DNA from: Deltaproteobacteria bacterium RIFOXYA12_FULL_61_11
Lineage (GTDB): Bacteria; Bdellovibrionota_F; JAHFAK01; YA12-FULL-61-11
NCBI GenBank assembly: GCA_001799195.1
Contig: MGSU01000168.1
Location: 1-8,915, forward strand
Reading direction: 5' to 3'
Length of the DNA: 8,915 nucleotides
A model generated the notes under the pieces. It did no database searches, was not told the DNA's origin, and saw nothing but the letters and a program-made list of their open reading frames with translations. A program made the position numbers and the translations under genes. Below, piece by piece: positions 4,874 to 8,878 of this stretch; within the stretch, counting starts at the first letter, position 1, and every line of letters starts with the position of its first letter.

Positions 4874-6526
4874 GTGGAGAGACGACTATTGCGCGAAGGG
4901 CCCGAGGCGACCTCGCCTCTCCAGCGCCCCGAAAAACCCGATCACGTTGAAGAGACCGTCGCCCTCTTCCGGGAACTCTACGAACGCAACGAACAACGCA
5001 TCCTCGCCCTCTCCGATGCCGACAGCGCAGGGTTGAAGTCCTACCGCGCCAATTACCACAACGAATTCGGAGCCCGGCCCGCAACTCCCGAAGACCTCCT
5101 CCCCCTCTCGGCCTTGACCGAACGGTTGACCGCTGCAAAGCTCATCGTCCTAGGCACCTACCACAGTCTCGACGAATCGGACGACGTGCTGCTGGACCTG
5201 CTCGACCTCCTGCTCGAACAGGGCAGACGGCCCGTGCTCTACACCGATCTGCTGCACAGCAACACGGAGAACCTCCTCGTCGGCTGGAGAGAACGCGGCG
5301 AAGGCCTCGACGACTTGGTCGAGGCGGTGCTCGAACGCTACCCGTATCGCCGGGAGGAACCCCTGCGCGCCTGCTTCTCCCACCTCCGCGACCTCGGCCT
5401 CCCTTGCCATGCCATGGCCTCCGACCTCGCCAATCTGCAGCGCTCCGGCAGGCAATACGCCAACCGGCTCGTGAAGCTGGTCGAGCTCGAGGATGCCCCC
5501 GAGGTCGTCCACGTCCTCACACTGGGGCAATACCACCTCGCCAGAGCCAATGCCTTCGGCAAGATCGAGGAGACCCTTGCCGGCCTGATCCCGGCGAAGG
5601 ATATCCTGCGCGTGTTGCAGAACTACCCCGAACACTATTTCCAACTCGCGGAGGACCGGGCCAGCCACCGACTCAACGTGGTGCGCATGGATGAAACCAC
5701 CCTGGACCTCTCCTACCTCCCTCCCATGCACGTCCAGAGCACGTTCCTCGCCTGGCAGCAAGAGGTGCCTCGCAGGCTGGACAGTTTCAAGGTCTACGAA
5801 GGTTTTCTCGAAATCCTGCGGCAGCTCAAGCAAGAGTTCTCTATCGATCTGATCCAACACGAGGACAAATTGCGGATCTACCACTACCGCGATCTCGGTT
5901 TCCTCGGCGACCTCTACAAGCTGCGTTGCAACGAGGCGGAATTCGCCTTTGTCCGCGAGCAGGTCCTGGCCGGCCAGAGCTTCTACATGAAGAAGCGCAC
6001 CAATCATATCATCTTTTTGGGCAACCTCGCGCTCTCCCACGTGGCTGAAGAAGCCACGCACTACCTCAAACAGAACTTCATCAAGGGCCGGACTACTCGC
6101 ACTCCCTCGGATGAATTCTACTACCACGTGCTCAACGAGATGATCGGCTTCTTCGGCTCGAAGTTGATCTGCCCCGAGCGACAGGCCCCGACCTTCGACC
6201 ACTTCTTCGCCCTGGCCGAGGGAGACGAGGACGACCTCTCCATCAGTCCCTTGGACCGGCGCATCGCAACCGTCGTCCTTGAGCAGTTCAAGACCGGCAC
6301 CATGGCCCAACTCGAGGACTCCCAGGTCTCCGCCTTCGAACCCGAACTCTTCCGCGGTATTGTTCATGCCATCGGGTATCTGATCGGCGAATACCTCTAC
6401 CGCAACTTCGCCGCCCATCTGCTCGATCGGGACTTTCTCAAGGACCTGATGATCAACGAGTACAAGAAGGACCGGTGTTACCGATTGTTCGTCGAGGTCC
6501 TCCAGAGCATCGAGCAACTGGACTGA
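4874..6526 (+). CDS. Cytoplasmic ChaN/TIKI-like protein with an unassigned His/Glu-rich C-terminal region
   Basis: This 550-residue protein has no signal peptide or membrane segment. Residues about 85-240 look like the ChaN/erythromycin-esterase/TIKI superfamily. LIVLGTYHS (90-98) matches the usual first-strand GExH motif, EGLDDLVEAVLERYPYRREEPLRACF (143-168) matches the helical insert, and VVHVLTLGQYHLARANAFGKI (211-231) matches the late strand-plus-His motif. His97 and His221 would be the key residues. The usual Glu of GExH is replaced by Thr95, so activity may differ. Residues about 300-550 are a separate helical region that I do not recognise; it carries HVAEEATH (389-396), an HxxEExxH arrangement capable of metal binding, and a Glu/His-bearing helix pair around 497-515. 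The start is GTG, with GAGG (4865-4868) five bases upstream; the ATG at 4870 is in another, quickly closed frame. Family assignment is by eye and tentative; coding status is firm. Confidence 0.8.
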   Translation: MERRLLREGPEATSPLQRPEKPDHVEETVALFRELYERNEQRILALSDADSAGLKSYRANYHNEFGARPATPEDLLPLSALTERLTAAKLIVLGTYHSLDESDDVLLDLLDLLLEQGRRPVLYTDLLHSNTENLLVGWRERGEGLDDLVEAVLERYPYRREEPLRACFSHLRDLGLPCHAMASDLANLQRSGRQYANRLVKLVELEDAPEVVHVLTLGQYHLARANAFGKIEETLAGLIPAKDILRVLQNYPEHYFQLAEDRASHRLNVVRMDETTLDLSYLPPMHVQSTFLAWQQEVPRRLDSFKVYEGFLEILRQLKQEFSIDLIQHEDKLRIYHYRDLGFLGDLYKLRCNEAEFAFVREQVLAGQSFYMKKRTNHIIFLGNLALSHVAEEATHYLKQNFIKGRTTRTPSDEFYYHVLNEMIGFFGSKLICPERQAPTFDHFFALAEGDEDDLSISPLDRRIATVVLEQFKTGTMAQLEDSQVSAFEPELFRGIVHAIGYLIGEYLYRNFAAHLLDRDFLKDLMINEYKKDRCYRLFVEVLQSIEQLD

Positions 6527-6581: not shown

Positions 6582-6622
6582 TTTCTCCGTTGGGTCCACG
6601 TCGCTCACCGAGGTTTTCGATC

Positions 6623-7702
6623 GTGTCGAACTTCCTCCTCAGGTCTCTACTCCTCGCCATCGCGGCGATCCTGGCCGGTCCGACCCCTGCCGATGCCGAG
6701 CACGCCTTCTACGACGAGCAACTCTATTCCTCCGAGCAACCCGCGGCCACCCAATACTTCTTCCATTGGACCACCGAGGAATGGAAGGCCTTCGACTACG
6801 AGATCATCGCCCATTATCGCAAGGCCATCGCCGTAGCCCGGAAGAAAGGCGACCGCGAGGTCGACCTCCAGTACCTAGCCGATAACAATCGCCACTTCCG
6901 GACCAATCTACCCACCTACCTGGAAGAACGGCGGAAACAAGAACAGCAAGGCAAAGAGGCGGGCGAGGAAGAAACTGCGCCCGCCGCTCCGCAACCGATT
7001 GGTATGTCCTTCGACCTCGACACCGCCGACTACCTCCTCCAACGTCACTGGGATGCGGTCTGGGCCATCATCACCGCCTCTGACCTGTTCCCCTTCGGCC
7101 GAGGTTTTTACATTGCGACCAATCCATGCAGCTCGATTTTCTACGCCGACAATCGCACCGAACGAAAGAAGAAGGACATCAACAATTTGGTTGTCTTCCG
7201 CTTCAAAGAGCGCCTCGGCCGCAACCCGGTACGTTACTTCCGGGCCTATCGCAATCCCGAGAAGCTCGCCGCTCTATTCGAACACCTGCGACGCACCCAT
7301 CGCCAGGACCTGACCTTCGAGTACGATGCCCGGAAGAGCGAGGGGAAGGACGTACGGTACCTCTTGCCCAATGGCCCGCTGGTCGAGTGGCTGCTCCAGA
7401 ACGTCGATCTGGCCGGTTATTACAACGACGGCGAGGGGACGCGCAGCTTCCTCTCCAATCAATACATCAACGACGACTATCACGTGGTCTACAACCCCAA
7501 ACTGATCTACCAGGCCGAGATCCACACCCTGTGGAATCCGAGCAAGGACCCCAAGAAAGAGACTTTTTACAATATTATCAATGAATTCATCCGTACCGAC
7601 AAGAACAATCCGGATATCAATGCCTACCAGGACAAGACCAACGTCTGCCACCTCTTCCTCAAACAACACCTTCCCTTGATGGAAGATCACTTCGAGTTTT
7701 AG
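6623..7702 (+). CDS. Secreted protein with PARP/ADP-ribosyltransferase-like motif
   Basis: This 359-residue protein begins at GTG 6623, with GAGGT at 6610-6614. This start gives a clean Sec signal peptide (residues 1-25, cut after ADA), whereas the longer frame from 6530 would bury it and include the promoter. The mature protein has FFHWTT (46-51), then a charged Glu/Lys/Gln- and Ala/Pro-rich insert (about 100-125). FGRGFYIATNPCSSIFYAD (158-176) and NNLVVFRFKERLG (187-199) follow. The last two resemble the active-site Tyr loop and following strand of PARP-type transferases (FGKGIYFA...S..Y, then LILLGEVALG). H48 and Y163 could then be the His and Tyr of the H-Y-E triad. The segment DDYHVVYNPKLIY (284-296) resembles the closing strand, but has Asp rather than Glu. 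The fold is my inference from motifs; the reaction and target are unknown, and the protein may be catalytically divergent. Confidence 0.78.
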   Translation: MSNFLLRSLLLAIAAILAGPTPADAEHAFYDEQLYSSEQPAATQYFFHWTTEEWKAFDYEIIAHYRKAIAVARKKGDREVDLQYLADNNRHFRTNLPTYLEERRKQEQQGKEAGEEETAPAAPQPIGMSFDLDTADYLLQRHWDAVWAIITASDLFPFGRGFYIATNPCSSIFYADNRTERKKKDINNLVVFRFKERLGRNPVRYFRAYRNPEKLAALFEHLRRTHRQDLTFEYDARKSEGKDVRYLLPNGPLVEWLLQNVDLAGYYNDGEGTRSFLSNQYINDDYHVVYNPKLIYQAEIHTLWNPSKDPKKETFYNIINEFIRTDKNNPDINAYQDKTNVCHLFLKQHLPLMEDHFEF

Positions 7703-7716
7703 CTTTTAGCTAATAA
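7697..7716. terminator. AT-rich palindrome between convergent genes (weak terminator candidate)
   Basis: TTTTAGCT (7697-7704) and AGCTAATAAAA (7708 onward) form a short stem with a 3-nt loop and one bulged T. The stop codons of both convergent genes (TAG at 7700-7702 on plus, and at 7712-7710 on minus) lie inside it, leaving only 7 bp between genes. The stem is weak and lacks a clear T-run on either strand, so its efficiency as an intrinsic terminator is doubtful. Confidence 0.3.
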
Positions 7717-7925
7717 AAATTATCCCCTCCGCGCGTATAGTGGGAGAGGCAGAGGAAGCGCAACCCATCGGCGACGCGGTTCTTGCACCCGGCTACCGAG
7801 CAGATGCGATCATTCTTAACGCGGGCATCCTTAAGCTCTCGGAAGGGGCTGCGGACCTTATCGCGTTCCTTGCGCTGGTACTCGTTCTCGATGTCGCTCT
7901 CAGGTCCCTCGGTGTAATCGTCCAT
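7710..7925 (-). CDS. Small hypothetical protein with a Cys/His zinc-binding pattern
   Basis: This 71-residue protein has a very hydrophilic N-terminal half, rich in Asp/Glu then Arg/Lys (1-40), that is probably helical or disordered. A compact C-terminal module follows, with Cys42, Cys47, Cys59 and His62 (C-x4-C-x11-C-x2-H). The module reads ICSVAGCKNR...LCLSHYTRGG, like the small single-zinc knuckles seen in many uncharacterised bacterial proteins, where GC..... GLC..HY is recurrent. The start ATG at 7925 has GAGGGGG just upstream. The opposite-strand frame over the same DNA gives a low-complexity hydrophobic product without a Shine-Dalgarno, so the minus strand is preferred. It is convergent with the PARP-like gene and divergent from the TTP-repeat lipoprotein gene. 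Function is unknown; nucleic-acid binding is possible but not shown. Confidence 0.65.
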   Translation of the reverse strand: MDDYTEGPESDIENEYQRKERDKVRSPFRELKDARVKNDRICSVAGCKNRVADGLRFLCLSHYTRGGDNFY

Positions 7926-8137: not shown

Positions 8138-8878
8138 ATGAACACTCTCGCCCGAATCTTCTTCCTGTCCTTGCTCGTCACCGTCCTGGCCTGCGGAGGC
8201 GGAGACAAAAAAAGCTCCACCGAGGATGCAAGCACCGACACCAGCGCCACGGACCCGAGCCGGACTGGCGATCTGCCGACCACGCCGACCACGCCGACTA
8301 CACCGACGACACCGACTACGCCGACTACACCGACCACTCCGACCGTACCGGCCTATGATCCGACTACTCCCAGTCAGACGATCACCGATTCCTCAGGGTC
8401 CATGACTCTGCAAACCGGCCAGAGCACCAAGACCGCCGATGCGAGTAGCGGGATCAACAGTGTGACCGTGACCAACAGCGCCCAGAACTTGGTCTTCTCT
8501 TTCTCCAACCTGGAGATGGGGTGTAAGAGCGGGTATGGCGCCGACTACGAGACTGGCTATGCTGGTCAATCCTTCCAATTGAACGTGTTCGAGAAGGACG
8601 ACCCAGCCAACACCTCTACTTGCACCGGGAACGTCTTCAAGTCCTTCGACATCAACATCGCCAAGGGCCTGTTGTTCACCGGCACCGAGGTCACGACCAT
8701 CACGGTTACGTACAACAACGCGCAAATCCTGCACGCCGATGAATTCAATCTCGTTTCCGGTACTACGATCACCGGAAGCGGTTCGGCTCCGGTAGGTCCG
8801 ATCCCCGACCCGAGCGCCGATCCCTCAACCCCAGATGCCACCGACGACCTGGTCACCGAGGACGTGACCGCCGATTGA
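8138..8878 (+). CDS. Surface-type lipoprotein with Thr-Thr-Pro tether
   Basis: This 246-residue lipoprotein has signal peptide 1-18 and lipobox VLAC, with Cys19 followed by GGGDKK. Next come a Ser/Thr/Asp-rich linker (25-47) and seven exact Thr-Thr-Pro units (48-68) ending in TVP. A beta-rich domain (about 78-215) follows, full of Ser/Thr/Asn, with Cys129 and Cys162 as a possible disulfide. The C-terminal tail is Pro-rich and acidic (216-246). This is the layout of an exported domain held off the membrane by a stiff, glycosylation-type linker. The frame is open upstream to 7958, but that stretch is compositionally unlike coding DNA. The ATG at 8138 has GGAG (8126-8129) upstream and places the signal peptide at the N-terminus. 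No named family is recognised; adhesive, matrix-associated or envelope roles are all possible. Confidence 0.85.
   Translation: MNTLARIFFLSLLVTVLACGGGDKKSSTEDASTDTSATDPSRTGDLPTTPTTPTTPTTPTTPTTPTTPTVPAYDPTTPSQTITDSSGSMTLQTGQSTKTADASSGINSVTVTNSAQNLVFSFSNLEMGCKSGYGADYETGYAGQSFQLNVFEKDDPANTSTCTGNVFKSFDINIAKGLLFTGTEVTTITVTYNNAQILHADEFNLVSGTTITGSGSAPVGPIPDPSADPSTPDATDDLVTEDVTAD
8279..8341 (+). repeat. Seven 9-bp units encoding Thr-Thr-Pro
   Basis: Seven consecutive 9-bp units of the form ACN-ACN-CCG lie in frame within the lipoprotein gene, followed by a variant ACC-GTA-CCG (8342-8350). Proline is always CCG, while both threonine codons vary among ACC, ACT, ACG and ACA. The array is therefore conserved as protein more strictly than as DNA. 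Being a multiple of three, length changes would keep the frame. Confidence 0.95.

Follow-up and report, generated by a model that had tools for sequence, protein, structure and literature searches.

A candidate exported PARP-like protein without the catalytic glutamate in a little-sampled bacterial phylum

Catalytic domains of PARPs (PF00644; PARP13/ZAP, PARP15 and tankyrase-2) share with the protein described here the exact spacing of the active-site Tyr loop, a His strand upstream of it and a strand after the Tyr helix. The bacterial family to which this protein is assigned below differs from them in carrying FHW or YHY in place of HG[ST], in its signal peptide, in having no conserved Glu and in falling below Pfam recognition. 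Diphtheria-toxin and exotoxin-A type domains (PF09009 and relatives) belong to the H-Y-E clade of ADP-ribosyltransferases (ARTs), in which the protein described here would also fall, and gave the best structure matches for a model of one relative, L063, but the protein lacks their Glu and their translocation or receptor domains, and identity is very low. Among mono-ADP-ribosylating PARPs that lack the Glu, PARP10 (H-Y-I) and PARP16 (H-Y-Y) are active (PMC7955679). These too keep the His and Tyr with a non-acidic third residue, and the protein described here could be read as H-Y-Y, whereas theirs are eukaryotic, intracellular domains with an HG[ST] motif. Tne2 and Tne5 are reported as ART-fold NAD(P) glycohydrolase effectors that destroy NAD in rival cells (PMC13285283). 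The ART fold would be shared, Tne2 (6b12) being among the fold matches of the L063 model, but they are delivered by type VI secretion, have no signal peptide and showed no sequence match.

The window, by which the whole analysed stretch of 8,915 nucleotides is meant, comes from a fragmented 4.6 Mb assembly of a phylum represented by two genomes in the collection. In an rpoB tree, two rows of which were wrong frames, the window genome and one other (G001) formed a separate lineage whose placement is not settled. The open reading frame lies where an earlier note on this DNA had put it, with H48, QRHW (140-143), Y163, D284/D285 and E299 at the residues named there. Its GC3 of 0.755 is similar to that of neighbouring genes. 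The features discussed are as follows.

6610..6613, + strand: RBS-like GAGG, 9 bases 5′ of the GTG (from sequence)
6623..7702, + strand: 359-aa gene for the putative exported PARP-like/ART-fold protein; start GTG at 6623, stop at 7700-7702
6623..6697, + strand: predicted Sec signal peptide, residues 1-25, cleavage between ADA and EH (by eye from sequence)
6758..6775, + strand: candidate motif-I strand FFHWTT with H48, residues 46-51 (family column F/Y-H-W/Y)
6776..7039, + strand: residues 52-139, a charged insert separating the His part from the Tyr part; most relatives have a shorter one (alignments)
7040..7054, + strand: QRHWD (residues 140-144), corresponding to the rFW(D/N) landmark of the family (profile alignments)
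7097..7144, + strand: Tyr loop GRGFYIATNPCSSIFY, residues 159-174 (motif search, family columns, PDB profile matches)
7187..7225, + strand: strand after the Tyr helix, LVVFRFKERLGRN, residues 189-201, as in relatives (profile alignments)
7364..7390, + strand: LPNGPLVEW, residues 248-256, a candidate third-motif strand (pairwise alignment with L229, not significant alone)
7472..7498, + strand: DDYHVVYNP, residues 284-292, the other candidate third-motif strand, with Y286 at the Glu position (resemblance, not significant alone)

The protein had been called secreted, and residues 1-25 do form a typical Sec signal peptide, with comparable signal-peptide-like N termini in relatives. Directly upstream lies the gene for a 550-aa uncharacterised protein without a Pfam or NCBIfam family match (4874-6526, +). 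A 71-aa convergent ORF (7710-7925, -) carries CSVAGCKNRVADGLRFLCLSHY, a possible zinc-binding motif, and a gene farther downstream (8138-8878, +) encodes a lipoprotein-like protein of 246 aa that has a TTP repeat at about 8275-8345. Further neighbours include a phosphonate-binding-type lipoprotein and MgtE. None of the window neighbours was like those in the DNA around the relatives compared, and the neighbouring genes do not fix the target of the exported protein.

The loop GRGFYIATNPCSSIFY matches the PARP loop, or motif II (G-x-G-x-Y-x-A-x5-S-x2-Y), exactly. We take Y163, S171 and Y174 to correspond to PARP1 Y896, S904 and Y907 (PARP1 numbering). Searches with the window protein alone found no relatives, so a degenerate DNA motif derived from the loop was run against 257 Gb of genomes and gave 32 matches. 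In 18 of these the loop lies in an exported protein and follows a [FY]-[HNST]-[WY] strand, and almost all of the 18 come from Bdellovibrionota-type genomes; about 10 were cytochrome oxidase subunit III, from Acidobacteria-type genomes and one gammaproteobacterium, and a few were other frames or proteins. The look-alike loop in the subunit III-like proteins (L062, L065, L066, L077, L078, L080, L082, L085, L086 and L088) is GRGLYLASNPANSFYY. Such loops are a trap for ART searches by motif only, and their presence there by chance means that the loop by itself can arise by chance; where a signal peptide and an FHW precede it, the loop does not look like an accident. Matches to the loop pattern in the window's own genome were histidine kinases and non-coding frames, not relatives, and a viral scan with the loop motif returned phage HGT-type ARTs outside the window protein's family. 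The PADLOC model PDC-M13A, a phage defence candidate that may contain an ART-like domain, matches the Tyr-loop region (7067-7216, +; residues 149-198; E=3.2e-4).

Profiles built from the loop-motif members had matches in two phyla, in 66 of 368 genomes of the first and 6 of 58 of the second. Among 386 genomes selected for relatedness to the window genome only the window's own matched, with a profile that included the window protein; outside that genome the family occurs in Bdellovibrionota and one related phylum, mainly in Bdellovibrio-type bacteria. Its members are 240-1000 residues long, and genomes often carry several of them, in some cases in tandem (L142, L083, L170). Their consensus runs from a signal peptide through [FY]-H-[WY], F-W-[DN] and A-G-P-G-L-Y-x-A-x-D-P-x-x-S-x-x-[YF]-G to L-[LIV]-x-[IV]-x-[LIV]-P-x-G. 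The first 18 members were found through the loop, and its conservation among them is partly by construction; the selection of alignment rows also required the loop, so conservation was rechecked on all profile matches. The loop Tyr was kept in 110 of the 111 that cover the position, including matches not chosen by loop, in agreement with the earlier reading of this segment as a PARP-type active-site Tyr loop. Ser or Thr stands at the PARP1 S904 position in 56/58 and Tyr or Phe at the Y907 position in 57/58. No curated Pfam or NCBIfam family covers the members, PF00644 weakly matches one of 57 relatives (E=0.02), and a text search of open papers found none on exported PARP-like proteins in Bdellovibrio. 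Tandem arrays hold two to five diverged copies on one strand (L142, 6 kb; L083; L170; L163) with variation in the loop at Y-x-[AST], suggesting rapid diversification of the family. In two long members (L072:88-2298, -; L087:2-2743, -) Fic-type motif segments, HPFSDGNGRSGR and HPFENFNGRTIR, are joined to the ART-like domain, so that two nucleotide-transfer domains in one exported protein are possible there.

Direct searches with the window protein returned only itself in its own genome and no relative in 98 related genomes, the phylum, viral and genome contigs, plasmids or phages. The best PDB match by phmmer was a nucleoporin (E=0.89). Pfam gave only a sub-threshold match to Exotox-A_cataly (PF09009; E=0.18) on the loop stretch and none to PARP; the protein did not reach the Pfam gathering cut-off, and the PF00644 profile had no match in its own genome. 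A family profile from which the window protein was left out gave it 24 bits (E=2.4e-6 with about 2000 shuffles as background), with H48 and the loop in the alignment, and hhalign against the family gave a probability of 90% (P=1.5e-6). Much of this fit is due to the loop, the very feature used to find the family. The window protein obtained no score once its loop was masked. When the loop was held fixed and the rest shuffled, 25/3000 and 20/3000 shuffles scored as high (p about 0.007-0.008), so the rest of the sequence adds modest independent support. The order of signal peptide (1-25), [FY]H[WY] (46-51), FW, Tyr loop and strand is, by eye for the first two, that of the Bdellovibrionota proteins (L063, L067, L089 and others), but the insert of the window protein is longer and charged, NP replaces DP, there is no Gly after the last Tyr, and it belongs to no tested subgroup. 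Subgroup profiles (cluster A, E, B, Fic-linked and others) did not claim it. The window protein would be a deep, isolated and distant member, with a modest fit beyond the loop.

In the column that contains H48, 42 of the 58 aligned members have H and the others N (7), S (4), R (3) or T (2), which supports the proposal that FFHWTT supplies the His and makes H48 the counterpart of the motif-I His. H48 is followed by W-T, and the family has H-W or H-Y rather than the H-G-[ST] of PARPs. Alignment with relatives also bears out a long charged insert between the His and Tyr parts. QRHW, suggested earlier as a second candidate His motif, aligns to the rFW(D/N) landmark; its His position is usually Phe in the family, so it is no rival catalytic His. 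At the catalytic Glu position the family has Ala 28, Ser 12, Thr 4 and Gly 4 (n=55). DDYHVVYNP is similar to DDEFVVYDE in a genuine bacterial PARP and to ETFVVYNSEL in L063, and would give H-Y-Y, the arrangement of PARP16. It competes with LPNGPLVEW, and neither placement is significant: the C-terminal match of the window protein to PARP motif III (197/2000) is suggestive only, and L229, which gave the best of the pairwise matches, has no significant similarity beyond the loop (545/5000).

AlphaFold2 without an alignment gave a pLDDT of 37 for the window protein, an unusable model. The structure comparison proposed in the earlier note was made with L063, for which 20 alignment rows gave a low-confidence model (pLDDT 57, pTM 0.58; C-terminal half below 50). 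Its Foldseek matches were almost all ARTs, led by diphtheria toxin (E=0.42), and in VIA-align 43 of the 43 matches listed were ART-fold proteins (best Z 4.1). The matches include diphtheria toxin, PARPs, MbcT, C3, VIP2, Certhrax and Tne2, each individually weak, with no competing fold among them; a viral structure library gave no match. The profile search against the PDB, which the note had also proposed, placed PARP domains first: alignment A1 found PARPs only (ZAP, E=0.0099; tankyrase-2, E=1.4), and in the larger A2 11 of 14 rows were PARPs and three unrelated (ZAP, 0.011; PARP15, 0.33). By hhalign the match to three genuine bacterial PARPs was weak (31% probability). An ART fold is probable for the family and, because of family membership, for the window protein.

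That the window protein is an unrelated exported protein whose short GxGxYxA loop arose by chance is improbable. The chance loops of cytochrome oxidase subunit III, the vanishing of the profile score on masking and a meaningless model of the protein itself all speak for it, but His strand, FW landmark, loop, following strand and signal peptide stand in family order, and both the loop-fixed shuffles (p about 0.007) and the hhalign P-value (1.5e-6) argue the other way. The reading of D284/D285 as the catalytic acid of a canonical H-Y-[E/D] transferase, put forward in the earlier note, is very improbable. Cluster A does have E or D right before the last strand (ETFVVY, DTMVVY, DTFVVY), where D285 lies in the window protein; set against bacterial PARPs (DDEFVVYD, DEFIVYQ), however, this acid falls one place ahead of the Glu position, where cluster A has T and the window protein Y286, and the remaining family members do not conserve the acid. 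For both reasons D285 is not supported as a replacement for Glu. Of the positions singled out for conservation, H48 and Y163 hold up, and the acid corresponding to D285 is not kept.

Loss of the catalytic Glu from the family means that activity cannot be assumed, and a pseudoenzyme is a serious contender at clearly less than even odds: an ART-fold binder of NAD, ADP-ribose, another ligand or a protein, without chemistry, like PARP13/ZAP. The absent Glu and the replacement of His by Asn, Ser, Thr or Arg in 16/58 members (about a quarter) fit it equally well, and the inactive ZAP domain as best PDB match of the family profile speaks for it. Yet the entire nicotinamide loop is conserved over very divergent sequences, the window protein keeps its His, and several Glu-less PARPs are active (PMC7955679). 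We prefer, at a probability of roughly 0.5, a Sec-exported ART-fold protein of the PARP/diphtheria-toxin type, a deep and isolated family member in which the nicotinamide-NAD pocket is kept and the catalytic Glu is not. On this preferred reading H48, G159-x-G161, Y163, S171 and Y174 would form the retained pocket, and export would take the protein away from its own cell's NAD. It could then encounter the NAD+ of another cell, either inside that cell or after its release, and transfer single ADP-ribose units as Glu-less PARPs do (H-Y-I/L/Y), or hydrolyse NAD+; NAD use, target and delivery to another cell are what we infer. The likeliest use would be of another cell's NAD, by a mono-ADP-ribosyltransferase or NAD glycohydrolase, with non-catalytic binding nearly as likely. 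To our knowledge NAD+ is not expected in the periplasm, which counts against the preferred explanation.

Exported PARP-like domains in a Bdellovibrio-type setting have no Pfam or NCBIfam name. Tentatively, and against the odds as we see them, predatory Bdellovibrionota and related deep lineages may export PARP-like proteins in large and fast-evolving sets, with a non-canonical H-Y-[A/S/T/Y] site for NAD-dependent chemistry on other cells, a range that the window protein would extend to another little-sampled phylum. Were these proteins active, predatory bacteria would have in them NAD-dependent effectors whose site works without Glu, comparable in this to human mono-ARTs; were they inactive, the family would amount to a large radiation, in bacteria, of exported pseudoenzymes with an ART fold.
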